The notes beneath the pieces were generated by a model. The model did not search any database and was not told the origin of the DNA. It worked only from the letters and a program-made list of their open reading frames with translations. A stretch of 64,000 bases of DNA from Micromonospora purpureochromogenes (GTDB lineage: Bacteria > Actinomycetota > Actinomycetes > Mycobacteriales > Micromonosporaceae): the NCBI RefSeq assembly GCF_900091515.1, contig NZ_LT607410.1, positions 4,278,001-4,342,000 on the forward strand. Direction: 5' to 3'. Below are positions 1 through 16,374 of this stretch, in pieces. Made by a program: the position numbers and the translations under genes. The first letter of the stretch is position 1; the number at the start of each line of letters is the position of its first letter.

Positions 1-1073
1 CCGCACCAGCCCCGGTCGTCGGTGTCCCGGGTGTAGACGGCGGAGAGGGCGGCGACCTCGATCGGGTCGCCCATCGCGGTGCCGGTGCCGTGCGCCTCGA
101 CGTAGCTGATGCTGCGCGGGTCGATCCCGGCCATCCCGACGGCCTGGGCGATCGCCTCCATCTGCCCGTCGATGCTGGGAGCGGTGAAGCCGACCTTGCC
201 GGCGCCGTCGTTGTTGACGGCGTTGCCGAGCACCACGGCCCGGATGGCGTCGCCGTCGGCGATCGCGTCGGAGAGGCGCTTGAGCAGGGTGACGCCGACG
301 CCGCTGCCCCAGACCGTGCCGTTGGCGGCGGCGTCGAACGGCCGGCACCGCCCGTCCGGCGAGGTGAAGCCCTCCATGCCCAGGTAGCCGACGTGCGGCA
401 GCTCGATGTTGACCCCGCCGGCGAGCGCCATGTCGCACTCGCCGTTGCGCAACGCCTCGCAGGCCAGGTGGAACGCGACCAGCGAGGTGGAGCAGGCGGT
501 GTGCACGGTCAGGCTCGGCCCGCGCAGGTCCAGCCGGTACGACACGTTGGTGGCCACGTAGTTCGGCGAGTTGCCGGTGGCGATGGAGACCGCCCCGTGC
601 GGGCTGCCGCCGACGCGCTTGTTGCGGATGACGTACCGGTGCAGGTAGGTGTTGCCGCCGGTGCCGGCGTACACGCCGACCGCGCCGTCGTAGCGGGCCG
701 GGTCGTAGCCGGCGTCCTGCAACGCGGTGTAGCAGCTCTCCAGGAACAGCCGGTGCTGCGGGTCGGTGATCTCCGCCTCCCGGGCGGTCATCCCGAACAG
801 CCCGGCGTCGAACTCGTCGTACCCGTCGACCAGCGGCGCCCGGTTGACCCACCCCGGGTCGTCGACCTCCTCCACCGTGGCGCCCCGCGCCAGCTGCTCC
901 TCCCGGCTCAGCTCGGTGACCGACTCGACGCCGTCGACCAGGTTGCGCCAGAACTGGCGGACGTCGGCCGCGCCGGGCAGCCGGGCGGCGAGCCCGACGA
1001 TCGCGATCGGCTCGATGCCGTCGTCGGCGGGGAGGTCGGATGCCATCGGGTTGTCCATCTGCGTGTCCTTCAT
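1..1073 (-). CDS. Polyketide synthase, N-terminal ketosynthase (partial, runs off the window)
   Basis: This is the first 357 codons of a modular PKS protein whose remainder lies left of the window. After a short N-terminal stretch (ATG at 1073), it reads straight into a KS domain (IAIVGLAARLPG, then DPQHRLFLE). The catalytic cysteine lies in TACSTSL (about residue 192), and the first catalytic histidine in EAHGTGT (about residue 328). The KSNIGH lysine/histidine motif would fall just past the edge. The ATG overlaps the stop of the upstream NRPS gene by 4 nt (ATGA), so the two should be translationally coupled. The KS probably takes the chain from the C-terminal PCP of that NRPS and elongates it. 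What follows the KS (AT, KR, TE) cannot be seen. Confidence 0.93.
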   Translation of the reverse strand, partial: MKDTQMDNPMASDLPADDGIEPIAIVGLAARLPGAADVRQFWRNLVDGVESVTELSREEQLARGATVEEVDDPGWVNRAPLVDGYDEFDAGLFGMTAREAEITDPQHRLFLESCYTALQDAGYDPARYDGAVGVYAGTGGNTYLHRYVIRNKRVGGSPHGAVSIATGNSPNYVATNVSYRLDLRGPSLTVHTACSTSLVAFHLACEALRNGECDMALAGGVNIELPHVGYLGMEGFTSPDGRCRPFDAAANGTVWGSGVGVTLLKRLSDAIADGDAIRAVVLGNAVNNDGAGKVGFTAPSIDGQMEAIAQAVGMAGIDPRSISYVEAHGTGTAMGDPIEVAALSAVYTRDTDDRGWC

Positions 1074-4000
1074 TGCGCGGTGCCGCCGGGGCGGCGGGGT
1101 GGGTTGCGGCGGGTGCGGCTGCGGCGGGCGGCGGCCCGCAGCGCGGCGCGGGCGAGTTCCGGCCGGTCGGCGGCGCCGTCGAGGCTGGCGGCGAGCGCCC
1201 GGACGGTGGGGTGGCGGAACAGGTCGAGCATGGTGATCGAGCGGCCGGTGGCGGCGGTGAGCCGGGCGTGCACCGCGGCCAGGGCGAGGGAGTGCCCGCC
1301 GATGTCGAAGAAGTTGTCGCTGACCCCGACCCGGTCGGTGTCGAGCACCTCCCGCCAGATGCCGGCGATCAGCTCCTCGGTGTCGGTCAGCCCGCCCGGG
1401 CCGGCCGGCATCGGGGTGCGGGGCGCCTCGGCGGCCGCCACGGTCATCGCGCCGAGCTGCGGCGTGCGCACGGTGGGCCGGGGCAGCGCGGCGGCGACCG
1501 CGTCGGCCGGCGCGTGCGGGTCGGCGGCGAGCGCGCCGACCAGCTCGGCCAGGTCGGTCAGGAGCGCGTCGATCCGGTCGGTGTCGAACAGGTCCGGGTT
1601 GTGGACCACCTCGACGCCGAAGCGGCCGTCGGACTCCACCACGTAGACGGTGATGTCGAAGGGCGAGCCGGGCTTGGGCACCGGTACCGGCACGGCGGTC
1701 AGCCCGGTCAGCGCCAGCCGGGGCGGGTCGAAGTTGAGCACGTTGAACAGCACCTGCACCAGCGGCGCGCGGGAGGTGTCCCGGCCGACGCCGAGGGCCT
1801 CGACGAGGCGTTCCAACGGCGCGCCCGGGTGGGCGGTGACCTCGTGCAGCTCGGCGGCGCACCGGTCGACCAGCTCGGCGAAGGTGGCCCCGCCGGTACG
1901 CAGCCGCACCGGCACGGTGTCGATGAAGAAGCCCACCACGTCGTCGAAGGCGGCCAGCCGGCGGTCGGCGACGATCGCCCCGACCACGTGGTCGTCGCCG
2001 CCGGTGAGCCGGCGCAGCAGCTCGCCGAAGCCGGCGAGCAGCACCGCGGCGACCGTGGTGCCGCGCCGGGCGGCCAGGGCGCGGACCGCGCGGTCGGCGG
2101 GCTCCGGAAGGCGCACCGCGGCCTCGGCGCCGGCGTAGGTCTGCACCGCCGGGCGGGGCCGGTCGCGGGGCAGCTCCAGCACGGTGGGCACGCCGCGCAG
2201 GTGCTCGGCCCACCAGGTGAGGTCCGCCGCGCCCCGGCGGGCGTCACGCCCGGCCCGCCAGACCGCGTAGTCGGCGTACGTGGCGGCCGGCGGCGGCAAC
2301 GTCGGGGTCGCCCCGGTGACGGCCTGGGTGTACGCGGCGGCGAGGTCGTCGTAGAGGACCGCCTCGGACCAGCCGTCGAAGACCGCGTGGTGCATCGTCA
2401 TCGCCAGCACGTGCGCGTCGGTGCCGAGCCGGTAGACGGTCACCTGCCAGGGCGGCCCGGTGGCCAGGTCGAAGGCGTGCGCGGCGCCGGCGGCGAGCAT
2501 CCCGGCCAGCTCCCCCTCGGCGTCGGCGCTGCCGGTCAGGTCGACCACCGGCACGGCCACGTCGGTGGGTTCCGCGCAGACCGCGTACGGCACCCCGGCG
2601 GTCTGCGGGATCCGCCAGCGCAGCACGTCGTGCCGCTCGGCGACGGCCCGCAGCGCCGCACCGAGGGCGGCGATGTCCAGCGGGCCGCGCAGCCGGTGCG
2701 CGACGGCGATGTTGTACGGGGCGCTGGAGGGGGCGAGCTGGTCGACGAACCAGAGCCGGCGCTGCGGTGGGGACAGGGTGGGCGGGTTGCCGGTGGTCAG
2801 CGGCTCGATGTCGGCCGGGTCGGCGGCACGCAGCCGGGCGACCAGGCCGCCGAGGGTGCGTCCGGCGAGCACGTCCCGGATCTCGACGTGCCGGCCCAGC
2901 TCGGCGCGGAGCGCGGCGACCAGGCGCATCGCGGCGATCGAGTTGCCGCCGGCGGCGAGGAAGTCGGTGTCCGGGCCGGGAGTCGCACCGAGCAGCCGGG
3001 CCCAGATCCGGGTCACCGTCCCCGTCACCGGGTCGGCCGCACCGGCCGGCTCCTCGGCGGTGGGTCCGGCGGTCAGCGCGGCCACGGCCAGGGCGCGCAA
3101 CGCCGGCCGGTCCAGCTTGCCGGTGACGGGGCTGACCGGCAGGTCGTCGCGGCGCAGCAGCCGGGCCGGCAGCATCGCGGCGGTCAGCCGCGCCCGGGCG
3201 TACGCCCGGACCGTGTCGTCGCCGGGTGCGCCGGCCGGGGTGAGGACCGCGACCAGCTCGGTACCGGCCGGCCCGGGCACCGCCTCGACGGCGACCCGGT
3301 CGACGCCGGGGGCCTCGGCCAGCACCGCCTCGACCTCGCCCAGCTCGATGCGCTGGCCCCGGATCTTCACCTGCCGGTCGGTGCGTCCGAGGTAGACGAT
3401 CCGCCCGTCGGCCGCCTGGCGGACCAGGTCACCGGTGCGGTACAGCCGCTCGCCGGGCAGCCCGGAGAACGGGTCGGGGACGAACCGGTCGGCGGTCAGC
3501 CCCGGCCGGTCGAGGTAGCCGTCGGCCAGTCCGGGGCCACCGATCAGCAGCTCGCCGGTCTCCCCCGGCGGCACCGCCCGCAGCTCGGCGTCGACGACGT
3601 ATGCCCGGTGGTTGGGCAGCGGCAGGCCGATCGGCACCGGATCGCTCTCGGCGCCGCTCAGCTCGCCGGTGACCGCGAGCACGGTGGTCTCGGTGGGGCC
3701 GTAGCCGTTGAGGAAACGCCGCCCCGGCGCCCAGCGGGCGGCCAGCTCGGCGGGGACCGCCTCGCCGCCGCAGAGCACGGTACGCCAGCCCGGCACGTCG
3801 GCCGGGTCCAGCATGGACAGCACGGTCGGGGTGATGAAGCCCCAGTTCACCTCGTGCGCGGCGATGAACCGGGCGAGCCGGGCCGGGTCGGCGCGGTCCT
3901 CGGCGCCGAGCAGTTGCACCGCCCCGCCCAGCAGCAACGGCAGGAAGAGGTCCATGGTGGCCGCGTCGAAGCCGAGCGAGGCGATGCCGAGGCTGCGCAC

Positions 4001-4585
4001 CCCGGCGTCGGCGCCGCTGACCGTGGCGCACCCGGTGACGAACTCGACCACGTTGCGGTGAGTGGTCAGCACCCCCTTCGGGCGGCCGGTGGAGCCGGAG
4101 GTGAACAGCACGTACGCCGGGTCGCCGGACCGGGCCGGGCAGGGCGCCAGCGGGGCCGGGCCGGCCGACTCGACCACCTCGACGCCCGGCAGGTCGGCCA
4201 GCTCGGCCGCCGCGTCACCCACCAGCAGCGACACCCCGGCGTCGGCGACGATCTCGCGTTGCCGCTCGCGGGGGCCGTCCGGCTCCAGCGGCACGTAGCA
4301 GCCACCGGCCAGGAGCACCCCGAGCACGTCCACGACCAGCCGGGGCCGGCGCCGGCCGCAGACCCCGACCCGGGTCTGCCGGCCCACGCCGTGGGCCCGC
4401 AGCGCGGCGGCCACCCCGGCCGCCCGGCCGATGAGTTCCCGGTAGGTGAGCCGGTCGTCCCACTGGCGGACCGCGACCGCGTCGGGGCAGCGCGCGGCCC
4501 GGGCGGCGATCAGGTCGGCCAGCGTCCCGTCCGGCCAGGGCAGCTGCGGCCCGGCGACGGCGCTGATGGACAGGATGTCGGTCAC
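1070..4585 (-). CDS. Non-ribosomal peptide synthetase, A-PCP-C-PCP
   Basis: The product has 1171 aa from a GTG that overlaps the previous stop (GTGA). Domains in order: adenylation (residues ~10-500, FTSGSTGRPKG at ~162, NGYGPTE at ~295), PCP with GGNS at ~547, condensation with an intact HHAVFDG at ~732, and a second PCP with GGHS at ~1095. Reading the ten specificity positions by eye against GrsA gives D-A-M-F-L-G-G-V-L-K. This looks like an aliphatic (Leu-like) pocket, a tentative reading. The layout is odd: there is one A domain but two PCPs, and the second PCP follows C without its own A domain, so it must be loaded in trans. The downstream partner is the KS protein, which overlaps its stop by 4 nt. 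Confidence 0.93.
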   Translation of the reverse strand: MTDILSISAVAGPQLPWPDGTLADLIAARAARCPDAVAVRQWDDRLTYRELIGRAAGVAAALRAHGVGRQTRVGVCGRRRPRLVVDVLGVLLAGGCYVPLEPDGPRERQREIVADAGVSLLVGDAAAELADLPGVEVVESAGPAPLAPCPARSGDPAYVLFTSGSTGRPKGVLTTHRNVVEFVTGCATVSGADAGVRSLGIASLGFDAATMDLFLPLLLGGAVQLLGAEDRADPARLARFIAAHEVNWGFITPTVLSMLDPADVPGWRTVLCGGEAVPAELAARWAPGRRFLNGYGPTETTVLAVTGELSGAESDPVPIGLPLPNHRAYVVDAELRAVPPGETGELLIGGPGLADGYLDRPGLTADRFVPDPFSGLPGERLYRTGDLVRQAADGRIVYLGRTDRQVKIRGQRIELGEVEAVLAEAPGVDRVAVEAVPGPAGTELVAVLTPAGAPGDDTVRAYARARLTAAMLPARLLRRDDLPVSPVTGKLDRPALRALAVAALTAGPTAEEPAGAADPVTGTVTRIWARLLGATPGPDTDFLAAGGNSIAAMRLVAALRAELGRHVEIRDVLAGRTLGGLVARLRAADPADIEPLTTGNPPTLSPPQRRLWFVDQLAPSSAPYNIAVAHRLRGPLDIAALGAALRAVAERHDVLRWRIPQTAGVPYAVCAEPTDVAVPVVDLTGSADAEGELAGMLAAGAAHAFDLATGPPWQVTVYRLGTDAHVLAMTMHHAVFDGWSEAVLYDDLAAAYTQAVTGATPTLPPPAATYADYAVWRAGRDARRGAADLTWWAEHLRGVPTVLELPRDRPRPAVQTYAGAEAAVRLPEPADRAVRALAARRGTTVAAVLLAGFGELLRRLTGGDDHVVGAIVADRRLAAFDDVVGFFIDTVPVRLRTGGATFAELVDRCAAELHEVTAHPGAPLERLVEALGVGRDTSRAPLVQVLFNVLNFDPPRLALTGLTAVPVPVPKPGSPFDITVYVVESDGRFGVEVVHNPDLFDTDRIDALLTDLAELVGALAADPHAPADAVAAALPRPTVRTPQLGAMTVAAAEAPRTPMPAGPGGLTDTEELIAGIWREVLDTDRVGVSDNFFDIGGHSLALAAVHARLTAATGRSITMLDLFRHPTVRALAASLDGAADRPELARAALRAAARRSRTRRNPPRRPGGTAQ

Positions 4586-6885
4586 CCGTGCTCTCCCCGG
4601 TAGGTGGCTGGATCGGTGATCTGCAGGCGCAGCTCGCTGACGTGTCCGCGCCCGGCGGCGTCCGGCACCCAGGCGTCCGCCGGCGTGGGCAGCAGCTCGG
4701 TGACCACCACCGCCACGTCGGAGCCGGTCTTCGCGGCGGCGTCGGCCATGGCGCACAGCGACTGGGCGTACAGCGGGCCGGTCAGGTCGACGTAGCAGGG
4801 CTTGACCTCGGTGCCGACCTTGACGAACACCCGTTCGGGCAGGCCGAGGGCCGTCCGGAAGCGGCGCGCCGCGAGGTAGCGCGCGGTCTCGTCGCCGTGC
4901 CCGGCCAGCCCGCTGTCGGCCACGGTGGTCCGCCAGGTGCGCCGGGCCACCACCAGCCGGTCGATGGTGATCCGGGGCGTGTGCGGGGCCGGGTCGAGCA
5001 GCTTGAAGGTGTCCACCAGCAGCGAGCCGAGCAGGTTGGCGAAGATCTCCATCACCGGCCAGCGGGACCCGTCGGGGAAGACCGCGGTCAGCGCGTCGCC
5101 GTCGCGGACCACGGTGACGGCGGTGGCCGGGACCAGCCGGTCGACGTCGCCGCCGCGGGCGGTGTCGATGCCGAGCTGGCGGTCCGCGGGGCCGGTGAGG
5201 GCGTACGTGGTGCGGGTGGTCAGCCGGGGCCAGCTCGCCGGGTAGAGCACCCGGAGCCGGGCCGGTCCCAGGTCGGCGTCGAGCGCCGCCCGCAGCGCCG
5301 CCGGGTCGGGGTGGAACGGGGTGAGCACCGCGCTGTCGTAGGCGACGGTGGCCGGGTGCAGCTCGCCGAGGACGAGCAGGAACTCGCCCCGGTCGATCGC
5401 CTCGGCGGAGACGGCGCTGACCTGGAGGTCGGGGTTGTGGATCCGGGCGGACGGCCAGCCGGGCCGCTCGGCGGGGAAGAGCGCGCGGACCGGGCCGGCC
5501 AGGTCCTCGGCGCGCAGCCGCAGCTCCACGGTGCGGGCCGGCAGGTGCCGCAGCCCGAACAGCTGGGCCCACCGGTCGGTGAAGCCGGCCCCGGCGCGGG
5601 CGACGGGGCCGTCCGGGGCGATCAGCATCCCCTGGGCCAGCGACCAGATGTCGGCCAGCCGTACCGGACCGTCGGCGGCGAGCTCGTCGTGCAGGTCGGC
5701 GAGGATCTCCTCGCAGCCGGCGCCGATCTCGGCGGTGAGCCAGCGGGCCGCCTGGAGGACCACGGCGAGCGGGGCGGCCAGCGCGTCCAGCACGGTGGCG
5801 CCGACGGTGACGTCGAGGTCGCGGGCGGTCTCCTCGTAGCAGACGGTGCGCCCGGCGTACATCTGGCCGCTCTGCCGGGTGGCGGGGCGGCCGGTGACCG
5901 CGGTGAACCCGTTGTTGAGCGCGGCCAGCGCGGCGCCCAGCCGGTCCGGGTCGCCGGCGGCGGCCGCGACCGCGTCCCGGGCGGCGCGGAGCCGGTCGAA
6001 GTCGGCGGCCACCGCCGCCCGCACGGCCTCCTCGCCGATCGCCGCGATCCGCTCGGCCAGCACCCGTTCCGCGTCCGGGCTGTTCGGCAGGTTCGCGTCC
6101 CAGGTCAGCTGGCCGCGTTCGACGAACCGGTCCAGCAGCAGGTACCCGTCGTCGACGGTGCGGACATCGCCGTCGGCGCGGGCCCGCTCGGCCAGCTCGA
6201 CGGCGGCGGTGCGCCCGTCGCAGGACGCCAGCAGCCGGGCCTCCACCGCGGACAGCGGGATCGGCGGGTGCAGCGGCCAGCGCAGCTGCCGGCCCTGGAC
6301 ACTCAGGTGCGGTTGCAGCGCCGGGGCCCACCAGCGGCGGACCGCCAGGTCGTCGGCGAGCCGGTCGGCGTACGCGATCAGTGCCCAGGCCTCGAACCCG
6401 ACGTGCCGGCGGGTGACCAGCCCGGGTCCGGGCGTCAGCCGGGTACGCGGCTCGTCCGGGTCGAAGGTGCCCCAGCAGACCGGGCCGAAGAAGCCGATTG
6501 TCTCGGCCTTGCCGCAGTAGCGCTGCCAGTAGCGCAGCATGCTCAGCTCACGCTTGCGGCGACGCACGTTGCGTACCGCCGGGTCGGTGCGCAGCAGCCC
6601 GTCCAGCGCGATCAGCATGTCCGGGTTCTGCCAGGTGACCGCCTCGCGCAGCAGCGGGTCGGCGGCCAGGTCACCGGCCACCGCCGAGGAGTCGGCGAAC
6701 GCCTCGCGCAGCGCCTTGTCGACGACCTCCGGGGCGACCTCCCCGGCGAGCAGCGCGTCGGCGGCGGCGGCCGCGTCGGGCGCCGCGAAGCGGTCCAGGC
6801 CGGCGGCGGGGAAGCCGGCGGTACGCAGCACCAGGTCGCGCCAGACCGACCAGCCGGTGTCGCCGAGGGGGATGCGGTGGCTCAT
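4582..6885 (-). CDS. Lantibiotic dehydratase-like protein (LanB N-terminal domain only)
   Basis: A 767-aa protein from ATG 6885, overlapping the upstream stop (ATGA). It follows the LanB N-terminal pattern: DPLLREAVTWQNP, then a basic stretch and RYWQRYCGKAETIGFFGP near residue 132 (the TPFGLFAG region of LanB), HNPDL..GEFLLVLGELH, RITIDRLVVARRTW near 635, and VKVGTEVKPCYVDL near the C-terminus. At this length it lacks the ~300-aa SpaB_C elimination domain of full LanB. Known families of this type use aminoacyl-tRNA, either glutamylating Ser/Thr (split LanB) or adding residues to a peptide C-terminus (PEARL). Here it lies between NRPS genes with no precursor peptide or LanC in view. A role on carrier-bound intermediates is inference. 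Confidence 0.85.
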   Translation of the reverse strand: MSHRIPLGDTGWSVWRDLVLRTAGFPAAGLDRFAAPDAAAAADALLAGEVAPEVVDKALREAFADSSAVAGDLAADPLLREAVTWQNPDMLIALDGLLRTDPAVRNVRRRKRELSMLRYWQRYCGKAETIGFFGPVCWGTFDPDEPRTRLTPGPGLVTRRHVGFEAWALIAYADRLADDLAVRRWWAPALQPHLSVQGRQLRWPLHPPIPLSAVEARLLASCDGRTAAVELAERARADGDVRTVDDGYLLLDRFVERGQLTWDANLPNSPDAERVLAERIAAIGEEAVRAAVAADFDRLRAARDAVAAAAGDPDRLGAALAALNNGFTAVTGRPATRQSGQMYAGRTVCYEETARDLDVTVGATVLDALAAPLAVVLQAARWLTAEIGAGCEEILADLHDELAADGPVRLADIWSLAQGMLIAPDGPVARAGAGFTDRWAQLFGLRHLPARTVELRLRAEDLAGPVRALFPAERPGWPSARIHNPDLQVSAVSAEAIDRGEFLLVLGELHPATVAYDSAVLTPFHPDPAALRAALDADLGPARLRVLYPASWPRLTTRTTYALTGPADRQLGIDTARGGDVDRLVPATAVTVVRDGDALTAVFPDGSRWPVMEIFANLLGSLLVDTFKLLDPAPHTPRITIDRLVVARRTWRTTVADSGLAGHGDETARYLAARRFRTALGLPERVFVKVGTEVKPCYVDLTGPLYAQSLCAMADAAAKTGSDVAVVVTELLPTPADAWVPDAAGRGHVSELRLQITDPATYRGEHG

Positions 6886-9800
6886 CGGCGAGGCTCCCCG
6901 GTGGTGTCGACGATGTGCAGTCGCAGCTCGCTGAGGTACCGGCGGCCGGCGGCGTCGGGCACCCAGGCGTCGTCGGGGCCGGGCAGCATCTCGCCCACCA
7001 CCAGCGGTACGCCGTCGCCGTGGGTCATGGCCGCCGAGCGGACCATTGCGCAGAGCATGTTGGCGTACCCGGGACTGGCCAGGTCCACGAAGCAGGGCTT
7101 CGTCTCGCTGCCGAGCTTGACGTAGACCTGTTCGGGCAGGCCGAGGCGGGCGCGCCAGCGGCGGACGGCGAGGAACCGGTCGCGTTCCCCGGTGGCCGGC
7201 CCCAGCCCGCTCTCCCCGACGGTGGTGCGCCAGGTGCGCCGGGCCACCACCAGCCGGTCGATGGTGATCCGGGGCGTGTACGGGGCTGCGGCGACCAGCT
7301 TGAACCCGTCCACCGCGTGCGCGCTGAGCAGCTCGGCGAAGACCTCGGTCAGCGACCAGCGCTGCCCGTCGGGGCCGGTGGCCACCAGCCGGTCGCCGTC
7401 GGCGGTGACGGTGAGGTCCACCGTGGGCAGCACCCGCGCCCGGTCGGCGCCGGGCGCCGCGCCGAACGCCAACTGCCGGTCGGTCGGCGCGGCGAGGGCC
7501 TCGGCGACCCGGCTGGTCCGGCGGGGCCAGTCGGCCGGGTAGAGCAGTCGCAGCCGCCGCCCGCCGACGTCGGCGGCGAGCGCCGCGCGCAGCCGCTCGG
7601 CGTCCGGATGGCCGGTGACCAGCGGTGCGGTGTCGAAGGACGCCCAGGCGGCGTGCAGCTCGCCGAGCACCACGGTGTAGTCGCCACGGGCCAGCGCGGC
7701 GCTGTCGGTGGCGCAGATCTGCAGGTCGGGGCTGTGCAGCCGGGCCAGCGGCCAGTCCGAGGGGCCGGGCGGCGGGAAGGCGGCGTCGACCCGGTCGACC
7801 AGGTCGGCGACCGCGACCCTCACCTCGGTGGTGTCGGCGGACAGGGCGTCCAGCCCGAACAGCCCGGCCCAGCGGGCGGCGAAGTCGGCGGCGACCCGGT
7901 CCACCGGCCGCTCCCCGTCGCCCCAGAACAGCCCCTGGGCCAGGAACCACAGGTCGGCCAGGGACACCGGGGCGTCGCCCGGCCCGCCGCGCAGGTCGTC
8001 GTAGAGCTCGCGGAACACCGCCGCGTACGCCTGCTCCAGCGCGCCGACCAGCCAGCGGGCGGCGCGCAGCAGCACGTCGAGCGGGGCGGCGATCCCGTCC
8101 AGCAGCGGCCGGCCGAAGATCACGTCGAGGTCCCGGCTGGTGTCCTCGTAGCAGAGGGTCCGGCCGGCGTACATCTGGCCGTCGCGGCGCCGCGCGGCCT
8201 GCCCGGTCAGCCCGGTGAAGGTGGCGTCGAGCGCGTCCAGGGCGGCCCGTAGCCGCCCCGGCTCACCGGCGGCCGCGGCGACCGCGTCCCGGGCGGCGAC
8301 GAGCCGGTCCAGCCCGGCCCGGGCGCCGGCCCGTACGGCCTCGTCGCCGATCGCGTCGATCCGCTCGGCCAGCACCCGTTCGGCGTCCGGGCTGACCGGC
8401 AGGGCGGCGTCCCAGCTGATCAGCTCCCGCTCGACCAGCCGGTCGAGCAGCGCGTAGCCGTCTTCGGGGCGGCGCAGCCCGGCGGCCGGGTCGCGGACCA
8501 GCTGGTGGGCGGGGCGGCCGTCGGCGGCGGCGAGCAGGGCCGCCTCCACCGGGGTGAGGGTGACCGGTGGGCGGCCGGGGCGCAGCACGGTCCGGCCGCG
8601 CAGGCTCAGGTGCGGGGCGAGCAGCGGCGGCCACCACCGGCGGACGGCCAGGTCCCCGGCGAGCCGGTCGGCGTACGCGGCCAGCGCCCAGGACTCGAAC
8701 GGCACCCAGCGGCGGCGGGTCAGGTCGGGCCCGGGACGGACGTCGGCCATCTCGGCTCGCGTCGGGTCCACGGTCACCCAGCAGCCGGGGCCGAAGAAGC
8801 CCACGGTCTCGTTCTTGCCGCAGTAGCGCTGCCAGTACTTCAGCAGGGCCCGTTCCCGGTCCCGGTGCTTGTTGTTGCGCCGCGGCTCGGGGCCGCCGGC
8901 GACCAGCGCGTCGAGGATGACCAGGGCGCCCCGGTTCTGCCAGGTGACCGCCTCGCGCAGCAGCGGGTCGGCGGCCAGCTCGGCGAGCCGCCGGGCGGCG
9001 GCCGAGGTGGCCTCCGCGAACTCCTTGTCGAAGCGTTCCTCGCCGGTGCCGGTGGCGATCAGCTCGTCGGCGGCCGCGGCGGCCGACGGCGCGGCGAACA
9101 TGGTCAGCCCGTCGGCGGGGAAGCCGGTGGTGCGCAGGACCGCGTCCCGCCACACCGACCAGCCGGTCTCGCCCAGCGGCACCCGGTGCGCCCCGGTCGA
9201 CCCGGCACCCTCCGCACCCTCCGCACCGGCAGCGCCGCCTGCGGCAACGCCGGACGCGGCAGTACCGGACCCGGCGGCGGCCGAAGCGGCGGCGGCCGGC
9301 GCGGCGACAGCACCGGCCAGGTCGGCGCGGATCGCGGCGAGCAGCTCGGGCAGCCGGTCGGTGAGGAAGAAGTGCCCGCCGTCGATCTCGTGCAGGGTGA
9401 ACCCGGCGGCGGTGTGCGCGGCCCACGCGGCGCTCTGCTCCCGGCTGACCGCCCGGTCGTGCCGGCCGCTGAACGCGACGAGCGGCACCGGCAGCGGCTC
9501 GCCGGGGACGTACCGGTAGCTGTCCACCCGGCCGAAGTCGGCGCGCAGCAGCGGCAGCAGCAGCTGCACCAGCTCGGGGTGTTCCAGCAGCTCGGCGGGG
9601 AGCCCGCCGCCGGCGCCGAGGCGGCGCAGCAGCTCGTCGTCGTCCACCCGGGACAGCCCGTCGAAGAGGCTGGGGGCGGTGACGTGCGGTGCCCGCGCGC
9701 CGCCGACGTAGAGCCGCAGCGGCAGCGGGCGGCCGGTGCGGCGCAGCTCGCGGACCACCTCGAAGCCGACCCGGCCGCCCATCGAGTGGCCGTAGATCGC

Positions 9801-10034
9801 GTACGGGCGATCGGCCCGACCGGCGATGGCGGCGGCGACGTCGGGCACGGTGAACCGGGGGTCCTCGCTGATCCGGTTCTCCCGGCCGGGCAGCTGCACC
9901 GCGAGCACCTCGACGTCCGGTCCGATCCCCTCCTGCCAGCGCCGGAAGGCGCTCGCGCCGGCCCCGGCGTAGGGCAGGCAGAACAGTTGCACCGGCGCCT
10001 GGGGTCGGCTTCCGGGCGAGACGAACCAGTTCAC
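6882..10034 (-). CDS. Thioesterase fused to a LanB-like protein
   Basis: One 1050-aa reading frame from GTG 10034 (4-nt overlap with the upstream stop). Residues ~1-238 are a type II (editing) thioesterase of the alpha/beta-hydrolase fold, with FCLPYAGAGASAF, nucleophile GHSMGG at ~83, acid in SGRHDRA and histidine in IDGGHFF. Residues ~240-280 are an Ala/Gly-rich linker. Residues ~281-1050 are a second LanB N-terminal-type domain (RYCGKNETVGFFGP at ~415), clearly paralogous to the free-standing downstream copy; the two share ITIDRLVVARRTWRTTV exactly. No start codon or ribosome site is visible in the linker, so the fusion looks genuine. Joining a TE that acts on carrier thioesters to a tRNA-dependent-type enzyme suggests a joint role on the assembly line. 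I know of no described example. Confidence 0.88.
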   Translation of the reverse strand: MNWFVSPGSRPQAPVQLFCLPYAGAGASAFRRWQEGIGPDVEVLAVQLPGRENRISEDPRFTVPDVAAAIAGRADRPYAIYGHSMGGRVGFEVVRELRRTGRPLPLRLYVGGARAPHVTAPSLFDGLSRVDDDELLRRLGAGGGLPAELLEHPELVQLLLPLLRADFGRVDSYRYVPGEPLPVPLVAFSGRHDRAVSREQSAAWAAHTAAGFTLHEIDGGHFFLTDRLPELLAAIRADLAGAVAAPAAAASAAAGSGTAASGVAAGGAAGAEGAEGAGSTGAHRVPLGETGWSVWRDAVLRTTGFPADGLTMFAAPSAAAAADELIATGTGEERFDKEFAEATSAAARRLAELAADPLLREAVTWQNRGALVILDALVAGGPEPRRNNKHRDRERALLKYWQRYCGKNETVGFFGPGCWVTVDPTRAEMADVRPGPDLTRRRWVPFESWALAAYADRLAGDLAVRRWWPPLLAPHLSLRGRTVLRPGRPPVTLTPVEAALLAAADGRPAHQLVRDPAAGLRRPEDGYALLDRLVERELISWDAALPVSPDAERVLAERIDAIGDEAVRAGARAGLDRLVAARDAVAAAAGEPGRLRAALDALDATFTGLTGQAARRRDGQMYAGRTLCYEDTSRDLDVIFGRPLLDGIAAPLDVLLRAARWLVGALEQAYAAVFRELYDDLRGGPGDAPVSLADLWFLAQGLFWGDGERPVDRVAADFAARWAGLFGLDALSADTTEVRVAVADLVDRVDAAFPPPGPSDWPLARLHSPDLQICATDSAALARGDYTVVLGELHAAWASFDTAPLVTGHPDAERLRAALAADVGGRRLRLLYPADWPRRTSRVAEALAAPTDRQLAFGAAPGADRARVLPTVDLTVTADGDRLVATGPDGQRWSLTEVFAELLSAHAVDGFKLVAAAPYTPRITIDRLVVARRTWRTTVGESGLGPATGERDRFLAVRRWRARLGLPEQVYVKLGSETKPCFVDLASPGYANMLCAMVRSAAMTHGDGVPLVVGEMLPGPDDAWVPDAAGRRYLSELRLHIVDTTGEPRR

Positions 10035-13000
10035 CGCGCGCCTTTCTGAGGGGGGTCGATCCAGTACCGCCGGCGCTGGAACGGGTAGCCGGGCAGTCCG
10101 GTGCGGCGGACGCCCTCGTCGGGGTGCAGCGCGGCCCAGTCGACGTCGCGGCCGGCGACCCAGTCGGCGGCGAGGTCTCGCAGCCGGCCGGCCGGGCCGG
10201 CGATCCGGGTGTCGGCGTGCAGCAGCTCGTCCAGCGCGGCGATCGCGCCGGCCGGGGCGGTGGCGACCACCGCCGCCCGGCAGTCGAAGGCCCGCCGGCC
10301 CAGCGCCAGGGTGGCGGCCACCTCGGACAGCACCGGTGCCGCGCCGGCCAGGTGGGCCCGCAGCCGGGTGAGCGCCGCGCGCAACGCCCCGGGGGTACGC
10401 GCCGAGACCGGCAGCAGGTACGCGACCCCCTCGGGCGCCTCGACCGGCTCGACCGGCGGGGGCTGCTCGACCACCACGTGCGCGTTGGTGCCGCCGAGGC
10501 CGAACGAGCTGACCCCGGCGACCCGGCGCGGGCCCGGCGGCCAGTCGCGCGCCTTGGTCGGCACGTAGAACGGGCCGCCGGCCAGGTCGATCTCCGGGTG
10601 CGGCCGGGTGAAGTGCAGGTTCGGCGGGATCACCCCGTGCTGCACGGCGAGCACGGTCTTGATCAGCCCGGCCACGCCGGCTCCGGCGTCGAGGTGACCG
10701 ATGTTGGTCTTGACCGAGCCGAGCGCGCAGGACTCGGCGGGGGCGGCCCCGCCGTACACCTCGTGCAGCGCGGCGACCTCGATGGCGTCGCCGAGCGGCG
10801 TACCGCTGCCGTGGGCCTCGATGAAGCGGACCTCGCCGGGCGCGACCTCGGCGGCGGCGAGGGCGTTCGCGACGGCGGCGGCCTGCCCGGCGGGGCCGGG
10901 GACGGCGAAGCCGGCCCGGTCGGGCCCGTCGTTGGTGACCGCCCAGCCGGGCAGCACCGCGTAGATCCGGTCGCCGTCGGCCTGGGCGTCGGCGAGGCGG
11001 CGCAGCGCGACGACCCCGACGCCGGAGCCGAACCCGGCCCCGTCGGCGGCCTCGTCGAAGGCGCGGCAGCGGCCGTCGGGTGAGGCGAGGCCGCCCGGGG
11101 TGTGCCGGTATCGGGGCCAGGTGACGTTGACGCCGCCGGCGAGGGCGAGGTCGCACTGGTAGTCGGCGAGGCTCTGCGCGGCGAGGCAGACCGCGACCAG
11201 CGAGCTGGAGCAGGCGCTCTGCACGGCGACCGCCGGCCCGGTCAGTCCCAGCCGGTACGCCACCTGGCCGGGCAGGTGGTCGGTGAACTGCCGCCCGATC
11301 AGCCGGGCCTCCCAGTCGTCCGGGTCCACGTCGCCCACCACCGCCGGGTTGTCCAGCAGGTGGAACAGGAAGTACCGGTTGGCCGAGGTGGCCGAGTAGA
11401 CCCCGACCAGCCCGGGGAACCGGGTCGGGTCGTGCCCGGTGTCCTCCAGCGCCTCCCACGCGGTCTCCAGGAAGAGCCGGTGCTGCGGGTCGGTGCGGGC
11501 GGCCTCCTGCTCGCCCATGGCGAAGAACTCGGCGTCGAAGTCCGCGACGCCGTCGAGCCGGCCGGCGGCCCGGACGTGCCGGGGGTCGGCCCGCAGGCCG
11601 GGCCCGATGCCCAGGGCGGCCAGCTCGCCGTCGCTGTGGTCGTGGATCGAGTCGACCCCGGCGCAGAGGTTCCACCAGAAGGTGGCCAGGTCGGGGCCGC
11701 CCGGGAACCGCCCGGCGAGCCCGACCACGGCGATCTCGTCGCCGGTGTACTCGCGGGCGGCGACGGTCGGCGCGGCCGGGGTGGGCAGGCTCGGCGCGGG
11801 GGCGGGTGCGGCCGGCCGGTCACCGGTGGCCGCCGCGTCGAGCAGCCGGGCCTGCGCCGCCACGGTGGGGTGCGCGAAGAGCCGCACCATCGGCAGCGCC
11901 ACCCCGAACCGCTCGGCGAGGCGCTGCTGCACCTGGCCGAGCAGGAGGGACTGGCCGCCCGCGTCGAAGAAGCTCTCCTGCCGGGCGACCGCCTCGCGGC
12001 CGAGCACCGCGCACCAGATGTCGTGCACCGCCCGCTCGGTCTCGGTCCGCGGGCCCTGCCCGGCCGGGACGTCCCGGGGCGGGTCGGGCAGCGCCCGCTC
12101 GTCGACCTTGCCGGTGACGGTGAGCGGGAAGGCGTCGAGCGCGACCACCGCGCGGGGCAGGGCGTACTCCGGCAGCCGTCGGGCGAGGGCGGCGCGCAGG
12201 GCCGCCGGGTCGAGGGGCCCGCCGGCGGGTGTCGCGTACGCCAGCAGCTCGCCGTCGCGGGCGATGGCCCGGACGGCGGCGACGCCGGGCTGGGCGGCGA
12301 GGATTGCCTCGATCTCGGTCAGCTCGACCCGGAACCCGCGCACCTTGACCTGCCGGTCGAGCCGGCCGAGGCAGACCAGCTCGCCGCCGGGCAGCCGCGC
12401 GCCGAGGTCCCCGGTGCGGTACGCCCGGGTGACGCCGTCGTCCTCGAGGCTGAACCGGTCGCTGTCCTGCCCCAGGTAGCCCGGGGCGAGGTACCGGCTG
12501 CGTACCACGATCTCGCCGGTGTCCCGGTCCAGCGACAGCTCGTACCCGGGCAGCGGGGTGCCGATCGGCAGCGGCCCGGTGGCGCTCGGGTCGGCCTGGG
12601 CGAACGGCAGCGGGTGCCGGGCGGCGAAGGTCATCTCGGTGGCGCCGTAACCGTTGACCAGGACGCAGTCCGGCGCGAACCGGTCCCGACCGCGCGCGGC
12701 GTCGGCGTGGGTGGCCTGCTCGCCGCCGAGCAGCACCACCCGCACGGAGTCGAGCCGGCGCGCGCCGAGGGTGTCGAGCAGGAACCGGTAGACCGTCGGG
12801 GTGGAGTGGTAGACGGTCACCCGACGCCGGAGCAGCTGGTCGGCGGCGTGGGCCAGCCCGTGCCGGCGCAGGTCCACCGGGACGACGGCGGCGCCGGTGA
12901 GCAGGGCCGGATACAGGTCGGGGATGGCGGCGTCGAAGCTGAACGAGGCGAGCAGGCTGAGCCGGTCGTCCGGGCCGAGGGCGAGGTCGCGGATCTGGTT

Positions 13001-13528
13001 GTCCACGACGTGCGCCAGGTTTCGGTGGGTCTGCGCGACGGCCTTGGGCGTGCCGGTGGAGCCCGAGGTGAACAGCACGTACGCCGGCGCGTCCGGGTCG
13101 ACCGGCACGGGACGCAGCGGGGCGGGCCCGATCCCGTCGAGCACGATCACGGGCGTGCCGGGCCGGTCGGCGCACAGCCGCTCGGCCAGTTCCCGGTGCG
13201 CGGCGGCGCAGGCGACGGCGCGCACGTCGGCGGCGGCGAGCAGGTGGCACAGCCGCGCGTCCGGGAACCCCGGGTCCAACGGCACGTACGCGCAGCCGGT
13301 GGCGAGGGCGCCGAGGACGGCGGCGACGGTGGGCGCGCCGTGCCCGGTGAGCAGGGCGACCCGGTCGCCGGCGCGCAGGCCCGCGGCGGTGAGCGCCGCG
13401 GCGTGGCCACCGGCGCTGCCGGCCAGCTCGGCGTAGTCGACCTCGTGGGTCTCGCCCAGGATCGCCGGCCGGTCGGGATGGGCGGCAGCGACGTCCACGA
13501 AACGCTGGATGATCATTGGTTGCGCCAT
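10031..13528 (-). CDS. Hybrid NRPS/PKS, A-PCP-KS with AT absent
   Basis: The product has about 1165 aa. The A domain has FTSGSTGTPKA at ~156 and the atypical GYGATEMT at ~295 (normally YGPTE). Its pocket reads roughly D-A-P-H-L-G-G-F-A-K, which I cannot match to a substrate. A PCP follows (GGQS ~522), then a complete KS with SACSSSL (~768), EAHGSGT (~904; Ser replaces the usual Thr) and KTNIGHLDA (~946). After the KS comes a KS-AT linker remnant and, at once, the post-AT sequence GLPGYPFQRRRYW at the C-terminus. There is no AT, as in trans-AT modules, so the extender must come from a separate acyltransferase. Start uncertain: ATG 13528 directly follows a 19-codon ORF, but ATG 13573 and TTG 13579 are also in frame. 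This is the first gene of the visible operon. Confidence 0.9.
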   Translation of the reverse strand: MAQPMIIQRFVDVAAAHPDRPAILGETHEVDYAELAGSAGGHAAALTAAGLRAGDRVALLTGHGAPTVAAVLGALATGCAYVPLDPGFPDARLCHLLAAADVRAVACAAAHRELAERLCADRPGTPVIVLDGIGPAPLRPVPVDPDAPAYVLFTSGSTGTPKAVAQTHRNLAHVVDNQIRDLALGPDDRLSLLASFSFDAAIPDLYPALLTGAAVVPVDLRRHGLAHAADQLLRRRVTVYHSTPTVYRFLLDTLGARRLDSVRVVLLGGEQATHADAARGRDRFAPDCVLVNGYGATEMTFAARHPLPFAQADPSATGPLPIGTPLPGYELSLDRDTGEIVVRSRYLAPGYLGQDSDRFSLEDDGVTRAYRTGDLGARLPGGELVCLGRLDRQVKVRGFRVELTEIEAILAAQPGVAAVRAIARDGELLAYATPAGGPLDPAALRAALARRLPEYALPRAVVALDAFPLTVTGKVDERALPDPPRDVPAGQGPRTETERAVHDIWCAVLGREAVARQESFFDAGGQSLLLGQVQQRLAERFGVALPMVRLFAHPTVAAQARLLDAAATGDRPAAPAPAPSLPTPAAPTVAAREYTGDEIAVVGLAGRFPGGPDLATFWWNLCAGVDSIHDHSDGELAALGIGPGLRADPRHVRAAGRLDGVADFDAEFFAMGEQEAARTDPQHRLFLETAWEALEDTGHDPTRFPGLVGVYSATSANRYFLFHLLDNPAVVGDVDPDDWEARLIGRQFTDHLPGQVAYRLGLTGPAVAVQSACSSSLVAVCLAAQSLADYQCDLALAGGVNVTWPRYRHTPGGLASPDGRCRAFDEAADGAGFGSGVGVVALRRLADAQADGDRIYAVLPGWAVTNDGPDRAGFAVPGPAGQAAAVANALAAAEVAPGEVRFIEAHGSGTPLGDAIEVAALHEVYGGAAPAESCALGSVKTNIGHLDAGAGVAGLIKTVLAVQHGVIPPNLHFTRPHPEIDLAGGPFYVPTKARDWPPGPRRVAGVSSFGLGGTNAHVVVEQPPPVEPVEAPEGVAYLLPVSARTPGALRAALTRLRAHLAGAAPVLSEVAATLALGRRAFDCRAAVVATAPAGAIAALDELLHADTRIAGPAGRLRDLAADWVAGRDVDWAALHPDEGVRRTGLPGYPFQRRRYWIDPPQKGAR

Positions 13529-13529: not shown

Positions 13530-13589
13530 TCAGCGAGTCGGCTCGACTCCACTGTGGACAGGCGCGCAGGCATCGACAATTGTGATCAT
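13530..13589 (-). CDS. Possible upstream leader ORF before the NRPS/PKS operon
   Basis: A 19-codon ORF begins at ATG 13589 just after a run of seven G. It ends with TGA one base before the ATG at 13528. It overlaps the N-terminal extension of the synthetase in another frame, so only one of the two readings can be used. If it is translated, termination next to ATG 13528 would couple the two. It could equally be chance. Confidence 0.3.
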   Translation of the reverse strand: MITIVDACAPVHSGVEPTR

Positions 13590-13612
13590 GATCCCCCCCA
13601 GGACTTCACAAT
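13579..13612. repeat. Inverted repeat ATTGTGA-N20-TCACAAT upstream of the biosynthetic operon
   Basis: Perfect 7-bp arms lie at 13579-13585 and 13606-13612. Inside is a 10-bp palindrome GATCATGATC at 13584-13593. It could be an operator or a 5'-UTR stem-loop over the start region of the first synthetase gene. It is seen in the sequence; its function is unknown. Confidence 0.5.
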
Positions 13613-14509: not shown

Positions 14510-14908
14510 TCACGCCAGCAGGGCCCGCCGGCGCAGGTCGTCGAAGATGATCCGGTCGACCGGGGAGACCTGGTCCCGGTCGGCGTACCCGAGCCAGGCC
14601 ACCTCCTCGATCTCGTGGTCCGGCCGGGGCTCGCCGTGGTGCTCGGCGGTGTAGCAGGTCATCCGCACCAGCGTGCCCGCCGGGTGGCCGTGCGCCTGGG
14701 CGGTGAACGTGCCGACGTGCACGGCCGTCTCCGCGTCGATCACCACACCCAACTCCTCGGCGATCTCGCGGGTCAGCGTCTCCCGGTCGGTCTCGCCGGG
14801 CTCGCGCTTGCCGCCGGGCAGGTACCAGAGGTCCCTGCCCCGGGACCGGGTGCTGAGAATCCGGCCGTGCTCGATCCGGATCCAGGCGATCTTGTCGATG
14901 GGGTCCAC
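14510..14908 (-). CDS. NUDIX hydrolase
   Basis: A 132-aa protein from GTG 14908, preceded by GGAGG at good spacing. The NUDIX box (residues ~40-62) reads GGKREPGE with REIAEELG, giving the GX5EX7REUXEEXGU signature with all metal-binding glutamates. The N-terminal WIRIEHGRILSTRS and the YLPGGK loop are typical of MutT-like pyrophosphohydrolases of nucleoside diphosphate-X compounds. The substrate cannot be inferred. It is monocistronic, with the plus-strand gene at 15031 divergent from it. Confidence 0.9.
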   Translation of the reverse strand: MDPIDKIAWIRIEHGRILSTRSRGRDLWYLPGGKREPGETDRETLTREIAEELGVVIDAETAVHVGTFTAQAHGHPAGTLVRMTCYTAEHHGEPRPDHEIEEVAWLGYADRDQVSPVDRIIFDDLRRRALLA

Positions 14909-15030
14909 GGGCGGTCCTCCGGTGCGGGCGGGCACCCACCATAGACGGCGTCCCGGACGGGCCGGGTTTGGCGGCGGGGACCGGCGGGGCAATCGGAGCG
15001 CACGGCATGCTCCCGGAGGGAGGGACACGA

Positions 15031-15417
15031 ATGGGCTGGTGGCGCAACCGGCGGCGGCGGACGCCGCCGGAGAACGTGGCCGAACTCCTGTCCAGCAGCG
15101 GGCCGTTCCGGGTCGCCAGCGAACAGGTGGAGATCGGCGACTGGGAGACCGTCCGTCGGTGGCTGCGCGAGCTCGATCCGGACCTGGGGCAGCAGGTCTT
15201 CGTGCACCGCCCTTGGGGCACGGTCGCCGCGGTCAGCGACCACCGCGATCCGGTGGCCGTGGTGATGTCGGATGCCGAGGGACGTCCGTGGGCCGCCTAC
15301 GTCCCCGGCGCGGACCACCGCGAACACCTCACACCCGAGCAGGTCGAGTCGGTGATGCTGGCGGCGCTCACCTCGGACGGGCCTCCGGCCGGCCCCGACT
15401 GGCGGCGGCTGGACTGA
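15031..15417 (+). CDS. Hypothetical protein
   Basis: A 128-aa protein; ATG 15031 follows GGAGGGAGGG at a suitable distance. The N-terminus is very basic (WWRNRRRRTPP). The rest is a small acidic alpha/beta-looking domain with VAVVMSDAEGRPWAAYVPG and ending DWRRLD. There are no membrane segments or cysteines. I do not recognise a family. Confidence 0.65.
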   Translation: MGWWRNRRRRTPPENVAELLSSSGPFRVASEQVEIGDWETVRRWLRELDPDLGQQVFVHRPWGTVAAVSDHRDPVAVVMSDAEGRPWAAYVPGADHREHLTPEQVESVMLAALTSDGPPAGPDWRRLD

Positions 15418-15594
15418 CGGCCGCGGCCTCCCCGCGATGGACCTCCCACCGCCCCGCACCGCCCCGCACCGGCCCGCACCGCCTGGGAGCTGGCAGCCGA
15501 GGGCGGGACTTCCGGCCCGTGCGGCCGGTCCCTGCGCCCCTGCCCGGTCCGACCCGCCGCGCCTAGCGTCGAGGGCGGACACGAGGAGGTCGCC

Positions 15595-16299
15595 ATGCGG
15601 ACGTGGCAGGTGCAGGACGTGATGACGACGGACGTCGCGGCGGTTCGGGAGGGCACCGCGTACCGGGAGATCGTGGACGTGCTGACCGGCCGGCACGTCA
15701 CCGCGGTCCCCGTGGTGGACGGCGCCCGGCGGGTGCTCGGCGTGGTCTCCGAGGCCGACCTGCTGCACAAGGTGGAGCTGCTCGGGCAGCCGCACGAGCG
15801 GCGGATCCTTCCCGGCCGCCGGCACCGCGAGGCGCGGATCAAGGCCGGCGCCACCCTGGCCGCCGACCTGATGACCACCCCCGCGGTCACCGTCCCCGCC
15901 GAACTGTCCCTGGTGGAGGCGGCGAGCATCATGGACAAGCGGCAGGTGAAGCGGCTGCCGGTGACCGACGACCTGGGTCGGCTGGTCGGCATCGTGACCC
16001 GGGGCGACCTGCTCAAGGTGCACCTGCGCCCGGACGCGGACATCCGCCGCGACGTGGTCGACGACGTGCTGCGCCGGGTGCTGGGCGTCGGCGACGACGT
16101 GGTGGAGGTGACCGTGCACGGTGGCGTGGTCACCCTCACCGGTCAGCTCGACCGCTGGTCGACGGTGCACCTGGCGCTGCGGCTCACCGCGCAGGTCAGC
16201 GGGGTAATCGAGGTGGTCGACGCGCTCGGGTACGCGGTCGACGACGCGCCGTTCGCCGCCCTGCGTGCCGGCGGCGCCACCCCGGCCGGCATCGCCTGA
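15595..16299 (+). CDS. CBS-domain pair with C-terminal BON domain
   Basis: A 234-aa cytoplasmic protein from ATG 15595 (GAGGAGG just upstream). Two CBS motifs are visible: VQDVMTTDVAAVREGT (residues ~6-65) and ADLMTTPAVTVPAELSLVEAASIM (~85-145). A BON domain follows (~150-215; DDVVEVTVHGGVVTLTGQLDRW). CBS pairs usually bind adenine nucleotides, and BON domains occur in stress and envelope proteins. In actinomycetes this architecture is typical of universal-stress/dormancy regulons. The target is unknown. Confidence 0.9.
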   Translation: MRTWQVQDVMTTDVAAVREGTAYREIVDVLTGRHVTAVPVVDGARRVLGVVSEADLLHKVELLGQPHERRILPGRRHREARIKAGATLAADLMTTPAVTVPAELSLVEAASIMDKRQVKRLPVTDDLGRLVGIVTRGDLLKVHLRPDADIRRDVVDDVLRRVLGVGDDVVEVTVHGGVVTLTGQLDRWSTVHLALRLTAQVSGVIEVVDALGYAVDDAPFAALRAGGATPAGIA

Positions 16300-16316
16300 C
16301 GGCGCTGCGAACCGTC

Positions 16317-16374
16317 GCGCCCGACTCCGGCCGGCTCGGATCGGTGGTCGACCCGCGCCGGCCGGGTCGGGCGC
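16317..16374. terminator. Bidirectional terminator-like inverted repeat
   Basis: Arms 16317-16334 and 16358-16374 (GCGCCCGAC..CCGGCCGG and its complement) pair over 17 bp with one extra T. They fill the gap between the convergent CBS-BON and glycosidase genes. There is no T tract, as is common in high-GC actinomycetes. Confidence 0.7.

Follow-up and report, generated by a model that had tools for sequence, protein, structure and literature searches.

A tandem pair of LanB-type proteins, probably PEARL-type ligases, in an NRPS-PKS operon of Micromonospora purpureochromogenes

What do two LanB-type proteins do inside a thiotemplate assembly line? The question is raised by an operon of nonribosomal peptide synthetase (NRPS) and polyketide synthase (PKS) genes in M. 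purpureochromogenes (contig NZ_LT607410.1), part of which lies in the 64,000-nucleotide stretch analyzed here (forward-strand positions 4,278,001 to 4,342,000, referred to as the window). The two LanB-type coding regions occupy positions 4582-10034 on the minus strand, exactly where an initial annotation had placed them; it proposed that the pair either dehydrates a carrier-bound Ser/Thr via glutamylation or appends an aminoacyl group from tRNA. The second alternative fits the residue signature described below. Both proteins are probably ligases of the PEARL (peptide aminoacyl-tRNA ligase) type and not dehydratases, because the operon has no elimination domain and PEARL-type residues are present in both. 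We give a probability of roughly three in four to the reading that they are ATP- and aminoacyl-tRNA-dependent amide ligases acting on the product of the assembly line.

Domains, fold and residue signature of the pair

The two proteins are tentatively referred to as PEARL-1, which is fused to a thioesterase (TE), and PEARL-2. Their features are as follows (pLDDT, predicted local distance difference test of the AlphaFold2, AF2, models):

6882..10034, minus strand: TE-PEARL-1 (TE-LanB) fusion; GTG start, 1050 aa; Pfam PF00975 and PF04738; AF2 pLDDT 86.6
9300..10034, minus strand: type II TE domain, residues ~1-245 of the fusion, by Foldseek and motifs
9195..9299, minus strand: Ala/Gly-rich linker, residues 246-280 of the fusion; pLDDT < 50, predicted disordered; length varies by species
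6882..9194, minus strand: PEARL-1 domain of the fusion; 57% identical to PEARL-2; key residues kept, Tyr for Phe687
4582..6885, minus strand: PEARL-2 (LanB-2), stand-alone; ATG start, 767 aa; Pfam PF04738 alone; full PEARL residue signature; AF2 pLDDT 91.8

In Pfam, the fusion matches PF00975 (E 1.3e-35) and PF04738 (E 2.5e-31) and PEARL-2 matches PF04738 only (E 3e-29), while the elimination domain PF14028 is found neither in the two proteins nor elsewhere in the operon. This bears out the description of two adjacent LanB-type proteins without an elimination domain, and answers the PF04738-versus-PF14028 profile check that had been called for. Further, PF04738 scores 102-109 bits for the window proteins versus 716 for the genuine LanB that this genome encodes elsewhere.

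Two residues of TglB, Asp542 and Arg803, are those that PEARLs retain and split LanBs replace; their mutation affects ATP-dependent activation (PMC11117183). For BhaB7, the published residues further include Glu575, His577, Arg715, Phe755, Lys763, Glu813, and Arg815, and the tRNA residues Tyr205 and Arg208 (PMC11962472, PMC12945691). Their counterparts in the window proteins are D486, E508, H510, R648, F687 (Tyr in PEARL-1), K695, E751, and R753, with Y119 and R122 for the tRNA, an equivalence drawn from published numbering and spacing plus an alignment to TbtB, with no direct alignment to TglB, BhaB7, or SnaE. The gap between D486 and E508 is 22 residues, equal to that between Asp542 and Glu564 of TglB, and Y119 and R122 lie three apart as in BhaB7. 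K126 had been considered as the counterpart of BhaB7 Arg208, and was replaced by R122 on the grounds of helix position and the Tyr-Arg spacing; K126 corresponds to Arg in all 30 LanBs compared below.

Among 130 relatives, a set with many close kin that also includes four carrier-fused or otherwise divergent clades, no variation occurs at R21, R122, D486, H510, R648, K695, E751, and R753; for E508 and for Y119, 129 of the 130 have the residue. The same pattern is seen in a second set of 16 sequences (two of which, from G441, repeat locus L151 of the first set), except that four have Arg for K695, one has Phe for Y119, and two are gapped at R21; the four with Arg are those of the Streptomyces fungicidicus and G431 mini-clusters described below. 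Both window proteins carry Asp486, Glu508, His510, Lys695, and Arg753 or the aligned residue. Loss of the glutamyl-tRNA-site residues would have spoken against the initial annotation, and they are not lost: the shared tRNA-end residues, i.e., those matching the residues for the tRNA 3' end, are kept in both proteins.

The signature was also compared with 30 class I LanBs of the same family by profile-profile alignment (hhalign; probability 99.7 global and 98.8 local), in which the register may slip locally at ~18% identity. Y119, R122, E751, and Arg for K126 are common to 30/30 LanBs and R21 to 29/30, whereas none has D486, H510, R648, K695, or R753, and at most one has E508. The window proteins thus have ATP-site residues, assigned by spacing and published numbering, that are absent from these LanBs. 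Profile-profile alignment was needed here, as the profile of the group gives the genome's own LanB only 4.6 bits at the sequence level.

The AF2 model of PEARL-2, like that of the fusion built on input alignments of mostly close kin, has a MibB/TbtB/NisB-type fold, and all 11 PDB chains matching it at E <= 1e-3 in a structure search are LanB-type enzymes. Next, at low Z (3.9-6.8), come glutathione synthetase, a putative GspS, and RimK; kinship of PEARLs with ATP-grasp ligases has been proposed in print (PMC11117183). By sequence, a search of the PDB with PEARL-2 alone returned no LanB and three chance-level rows, and a 17-sequence profile reached TbtB. The structure prediction that had been suggested for finding a tRNA-binding cleft yields a LanB/TbtB-type fold, with the tRNA 3'-end pair Y119/R122 near the end of helix 107-125. 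A weak match marks a stretch resembling a RiPP (ribosomally synthesized and post-translationally modified peptide) recognition element (RRE) at residues 186-265 of the PEARL-2 model.

The model of the fusion consists of TE, disordered linker, and PEARL, and places the in-frame Ala/Gly linker recognized earlier between two folded domains. The TE, initially identified by its GHSMGG motif, is type II by fold: Foldseek aligns it with RifR (3fla, 36% identity), BorB (31-32%), and RedJ (36-38%), and the RifR-like fold is accompanied by the GHSMG serine. Ser84 lies in GHSMGG and His221 in GGHFF, and Asp193, counted by eye, is the likely third triad residue. The serine motif occurs in all TEs listed among the relatives and the histidine motif in most.

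The operon and its relatives

Upstream and downstream of the pair, the operon has the following features:

10031..13528, minus strand: A-T-KS gene (adenylation, carrier, ketosynthase), first of the operon, by Pfam; start ATG 13528 (MAQPMIIQRF), by eye from aligned upstream regions
1070..4585, minus strand: A-T-C-T NRPS gene (C, condensation), by Pfam; C motif MHHAVFDG, not ureido-type
1..1058, minus strand: N-terminal part of a KS-AT-KR-DH-T PKS of 1824 aa (AT, acyltransferase; KR, ketoreductase; DH, dehydratase), running left to genome position 4273584
Outside the window, down to genome position 4263750, minus strand: genes for a TauD-family oxygenase, MbtH, C-A-T, and C-A-T-TE-MFS (MFS, major facilitator superfamily), after the PKS gene
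13530..13610, minus strand: strongly conserved DNA block TGTGAAGTCCTGGGGGGGATCATGATCAC and a short open reading frame (ORF) with its stop codon 1 nt upstream of the A-T-KS start

Together these are nine NRPS-PKS operon genes, all on the minus strand, running from genome position 4291528 to 4263750 and thus ~14 kb past the window, in the order A-T-KS, TE-PEARL, PEARL, A-T-C-T, KS-AT-KR-DH-T, TauD-family oxygenase, MbtH, C-A-T, and C-A-T-TE-MFS. Three 4-nt overlaps (10031-10034, 6882-6885, and 4582-4585) join the pair to each other and to their A-T-KS and A-T-C-T flanks, with the coordinates exactly as first read and the flanking domains as found by Pfam; the A-T-KS start is corrected to what is most likely ATG 13528. 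A reading to the left of the window for a precursor, LanC, or separate elimination domain had been proposed: the operon continues there as NRPS-PKS and none was found. Pfam detected no LanC in the operon, including the genes past the left window edge, and its only small gene is MbtH among otherwise tightly packed NRPS/PKS genes. No conserved precursor was found at its start either, in agreement with the initial view that this is no lanthipeptide cluster. Taken as a whole, the first interpretation is partly supported: residues and operon content favor a tRNA-type enzyme embedded in a thiotemplate line, and do not support dehydration via glutamylation.

A real class I lanthipeptide cluster lies elsewhere in the same genome, at ~4.421-4.428 Mb (L009 7400-14130), outside the window, and was used as a control. 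Its genes encode a 52-aa Cys/Thr-rich putative precursor, a PF04738+PF14028 protein (the 716-bit LanB), LanC, and a PCMT-type methyltransferase with a second PF14028, so that Pfam finds PF14028 in two of its proteins. The genome has two PF14028 matches, and the one listed sits in this cluster, ~136 kb away. A lanthipeptide or thiopeptide cluster at the window itself was considered and rejected, with PF14028 and LanC both missing from the operon.

The 5' element that opens the operon occurs in 20 of 43 upstream regions (the window's included; 21 with looser patterns), in one copy in this genome when three mismatches are allowed, and in 12 of 200 genomes of the order, all Micromonospora. Its ORF has 19 codons in 18/21 and encodes no conserved peptide: the counts of differences are 1483/1296/1238 for codon positions 1/2/3, and codons with a single difference are synonymous in 261 cases and non-synonymous in 683. 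The ORF was therefore rejected as a precursor, and the element likely serves in regulation as a leader or in translational coupling. The start of the operon was also searched for other features: no conserved small peptide was found that could be the scaffold peptide of a PEARL, no Rfam element up to E 1, and, by a simple scan, no sigma-70-type promoter or intrinsic terminator.

From A-domain codes obtained by motif anchoring and set against known specificity codes, we take DLTKVGEVGK to be Asn-like and DVWHISLIDK Ser-like, the latter presumably making the last module Ser-type; two others were uninterpretable. The TauD-family oxygenase together with the presumed Asn-type module suggests a hydroxy-Asn, and KR and DH in the PKS module likely give a vinylogous amino acid in the product. 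In this PKS (L010 3584-9058, minus strand) KR precedes DH, and many relatives are alike. The last NRPS gene joins C-A-T-TE to an MFS transporter in a protein of 1850 aa (L007 5750-11302, minus strand), and TE-MFS fusions were seen again in 10 of 29 hand-picked neighborhoods.

Relatives of the pair are present in 129 of 300 family genomes (the own genome included). An orthologue of PEARL-2 with at least 72% identity occurs in 46 of the 299 others, all Micromonospora and one partial. A named survey found 452 relatives, the best 80 of which correspond to 75 loci in Micromonospora, Actinokineospora, Streptosporangium, Nonomuraea, Planomonospora, Actinophytocola, Catellatospora, and others. These loci lean to close kin, span at most ~23 kb each, and are in part cut by contig ends; sets of 29 and 11 neighborhoods were picked from match lists for diversity, not at random, and the three sets overlap (G441 = L151, G091 = L186). 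Genes were called with a purpose-made GC3 (third-codon-position GC) caller and domains by single-sequence phmmer with the window domains; PEARL pieces shorter than 690 aa were dropped before counting, which left three of the 75 loci without a full-length PEARL.

The neighborhood survey for LanB-TE fusions that had been recommended shows the TE fused to a PEARL in 41/75 loci, with a gap between TE and PEARL matches of 3-64 residues in the fused loci. A separate TE gene stands directly upstream of a full-length PEARL in another 14, and the remaining 20, which include the three without full-length PEARL, show no such TE. That TE and PEARL are now neighbors and now fused hints at joint work. Full-length PEARLs number three in one locus, two in 36, one in 35, and none in three; an A-T-C-type gene lies within two genes of a full-length PEARL in 62/75, and a KS in the stretch in 65/75. 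Many Micromonospora, and also Actinokineospora fastidiosa, have the tandem pair together with its flanking genes, which excludes a chance arrangement. Micromonospora operons with a single PEARL have the same genes as far as the stretch extends, and the copy they keep is the TE-fused one; M. avicenniae (L147) and M. antibiotica (L168) have single-PEARL operons.

In a tree of 80 rows, with several long branches placed unsurely, Micromonospora PEARL-1 and PEARL-2 form two lines. PEARL-2 of A. fastidiosa joins the PEARL-2 line and its PEARL-1 falls outside the PEARL-1 line, so a simple ancestral pair does not account for the history. In Streptosporangium minutum (three PEARLs), Microtetraspora fusca (two), and Actinocrispum wychmicini (two), the copies cluster within their own lineages, which suggests repeated local duplication. 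S. minutum (L154 7722-14580) has three tandem full-length PEARLs after a separate TE gene and groups with Streptosporangium canum. For the two window genes, dN/dS is 0.26 versus M. halophytica and 0.45-0.49 versus M. yasonensis.

Other arrangements were seen among the relatives. A carrier domain precedes the PEARL in one protein as A-T-PEARL in G090 (L097/L098) and G067 (L119/L120), and as C-A-T-PEARL in G178 (L099/L100) and G352 (L108/L109). Plasmid NZ_CP023408.1 of S. fungicidicus (L239 9689-17250) has a mini-cluster of PEARL, stand-alone A, pyridoxal phosphate (PLP) enzyme, acyl carrier protein (ACP), and PEARL. Neither a C domain nor a TE is annotated within 15 kb of it in a gene table that is incomplete; a LanM gene lies ~4 kb away, and G431 (L114/L115) has a like arrangement. 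In sister clusters (L059 of G233, 1723-4244), a DUF6002 protein (PF19465) and a dehydrogenase-like protein without Pfam match adjoin the A-T gene and perhaps make the starter unit; our literature search, with most subscription papers outside its scope, found no mention of DUF6002. Divergent PEARL-like proteins in L118 (G107, 14887-20000) neighbor what looks by eye like an adenosylhomocysteinase; no NRPS domain turned up within that 20 kb.

Possible chemistry and rival explanations

If the pair act as PEARLs, both proteins would form peptide bonds outside the thiotemplate. The assembly line would offer a free carboxylate, which could arise when the type II TE hydrolyzes an intermediate off its carrier or could be the distal acid of a chain still attached to one. 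The PEARL would phosphorylate it with ATP in an ATP-grasp-like pocket, and an aminoacyl-tRNA, bound at the conserved Tyr/Arg helix, would attack through its amine to give an amide, after which the tRNA ester would be hydrolyzed. PEARL-1 and PEARL-2 would each add one proteinogenic residue. The best-supported core of this scheme is the predicted ATP activation of a carboxylate followed by attack of the aminoacyl-tRNA amine.

Candidates for the carboxylate are an intermediate freed by the TE, the distal acid of a chain on its carrier, and the released product. The published source, chain reversal by a ureido-forming C domain marked by EHHXXHDG, gives SnaE its free carboxylate (PMC11212132). As the acid source here it was rejected: the signature occurs in 0/192 C domains (0/75, 0/26, and 0/91 in three overlapping sets, with 11 of the 192 called domains lacking even the basic HHxxxD motif), and half of it (EHH or HHxxHD) in two. 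The fused TE may provide the PEARL with an acid by hydrolysis, or may have an editing role alone; since the last gene of the operon has a second TE, it is probably not needed for final release. That it supplies the substrate of the PEARL is a possibility we hold to be the less probable one. The carrier-PEARL fusions and the S. fungicidicus mini-cluster suggest carrier-bound substrates, at least in kin. One could tentatively go further, with about the same reserve, and suppose that in this large actinobacterial group a carrier domain replaces the scaffold peptide: PEARLs would dock on T domains, perhaps by the RRE-like domain, and extend carrier-bound or TE-freed acids with residues taken from aminoacyl-tRNA, no ureido reversal being involved, the number of PEARL genes (one, two, or three) setting the count of tRNA-derived residues. 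The carrier-fused PEARLs and the PEARL-A-PLP-ACP-PEARL mini-cluster would then be the same logic stripped down.

Several observations weigh against the amide-ligase reading. R648 also occurs in TbtB, and so does not separate PEARLs from split LanBs. The Asp-Glu spacing is not constant, Asp558 and Glu575 of BhaB7 being 17 apart, and the equivalence with characterized PEARLs and the register of the LanB alignment are subject to the limits given above. The ATP-grasp Z scores overlap those of unrelated folds, e.g., nickel superoxide dismutase (5.7 in the same list), and the RRE-like stretch is kept, yet no leader peptide is known. By motif, the published source of a free carboxylate, the ureido-type C domain, is missing here. 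Ten of the 75 loci show no KS, loci L189, L190, L193, and L194 have few or no assembly-line domains nearby, and around a plasmid copy in Streptomyces NBC_00523 (42% identity) the annotation within 15 kb gives an AMP-binding protein and an acyl carrier protein but no NRPS module.

Among the alternatives, the one we would place next, though it is improbable, is aminolysis without ATP, in which the aminoacyl-tRNA amine attacks the carrier thioester and the PEARL serves as a tRNA-dependent extender or releaser replacing C or TE. PEARLs behind carrier domains, as in the A-T-PEARL (G090, G067) and C-A-T-PEARL (G178, G352) proteins, would suit this, as would the S. fungicidicus mini-cluster with its PEARLs, A, PLP enzyme, and ACP and neither C nor TE annotated. 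However, the ATP-site residues are present in every copy examined, these four fusions and the S. fungicidicus pair (with R for K695) included, and their loss would be expected if ATP were unused. It is a good deal less probable that a PEARL loads a tRNA-derived aminoacyl unit onto the second, A-less carrier of the adjoining A-T-C-T protein. The A-T-C-type gene is adjacent to or one gene past a full-length PEARL in the 62 loci counted above, most with a second T lacking its own A domain, but some A-T-C-A-T versions (G009, G062) have a second A domain and still a PEARL, a single A domain could load both carriers, and known PEARL chemistry proceeds via the aminoacyl-tRNA amine and not the acyl group (PMC11962472).

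Split LanB-type glutamylation, and hence dehydration, of a carrier-bound Ser/Thr with elimination elsewhere has a slightly smaller chance still. The last module, which we take from its code to be Ser-type, and the tRNA-end residues common to LanBs and the proteins here would agree with it; the absence of PF14028 from the operon, the location of the listed genome match in a separate lanthipeptide cluster, and the PEARL-specific residues of both proteins argue against it. Least probable of all is a pearlin-like RiPP pathway whose small carrier peptide was missed. Its hints would be the weak RRE-like match and the 19-codon ORF at the operon start, but the ORF's peptide is not conserved and the rest of the operon is packed with NRPS/PKS genes; a genome-wide search for distant carrier peptides was not made.

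If the amide-ligase reading is true, the model of ureido reversal followed by a PEARL covers only part of the roles of LanB-like proteins in NRPS-PKS clusters, as this group is common in Micromonospora and without ureido C domains wherever examined. In such clusters, product predictions that consider only A domains would then miss part of the structure, and the name "lantibiotic dehydratase" would mislead. The natural one-, two-, and three-PEARL operons make "one PEARL, one tRNA-derived residue" directly testable.

Comparison with known systems

Class I lanthipeptide dehydratases and split LanBs (NisB, MibB, and TbtB) differ from the window pair, which lacks PF14028 and has extra ATP-type residues. 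With TglB, BhaB7, and AmmB (PMC11962472, PMC11117183, PMC12945691), the pair has in common the LanB-type fold with ATP-grasp likeness and, in both proteins, ATP- and tRNA-site residues matched by spacing. Unlike these RiPP PEARLs, no scaffold peptide gene was found for the pair, which is embedded in an assembly line. The TE domain has the fold of the type II TEs RifR, BorB, and RedJ (~31-38% identity), and unlike them sits N-terminal of a PEARL in one protein. PacB and other aminoacyl-tRNA transferases with a GNAT fold are likewise described as joining a tRNA-derived residue to an NRPS product (PMC12945691), as proposed here. Their fold is different from that of the window PEARLs. We also take them to acylate an amine, whereas a carboxylate would be extended here.

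The closest system is that of SnaE, which adds Thr to the NRPS-PKS product of the threopeptin (sna) cluster of Stackebrandtia nassauensis; the same paper reports TE and T-domain fusions of SnaE-like proteins and about two thousand such clusters (PMC11212132). In our literature search, again with most subscription papers outside its scope, SnaE/threopeptin was the sole characterized NRPS-associated PEARL, and nothing was found on this operon family. Compared from the published description, not from sequence, both are actinobacterial NRPS-PKS clusters that encode a protein annotated as LanB, a TE, and MbtH but no precursor. The window operon differs in having no ureido-forming C domain by motif, two PEARLs versus one, with a TE joined to one of the two, and in its A-T-KS and KS-AT-KR-DH-T genes, a TauD-family oxygenase, and what we take from the codes to be Asn- and Ser-type modules. 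The window operon is thus an instance, real and widespread, of a kind in print since a 2023 preprint and a 2024 paper on SnaE (PMC11212132). What sets it apart from SnaE is the absence of ureido logic, the tandem or multiplied PEARLs, and their coupling to a TE.

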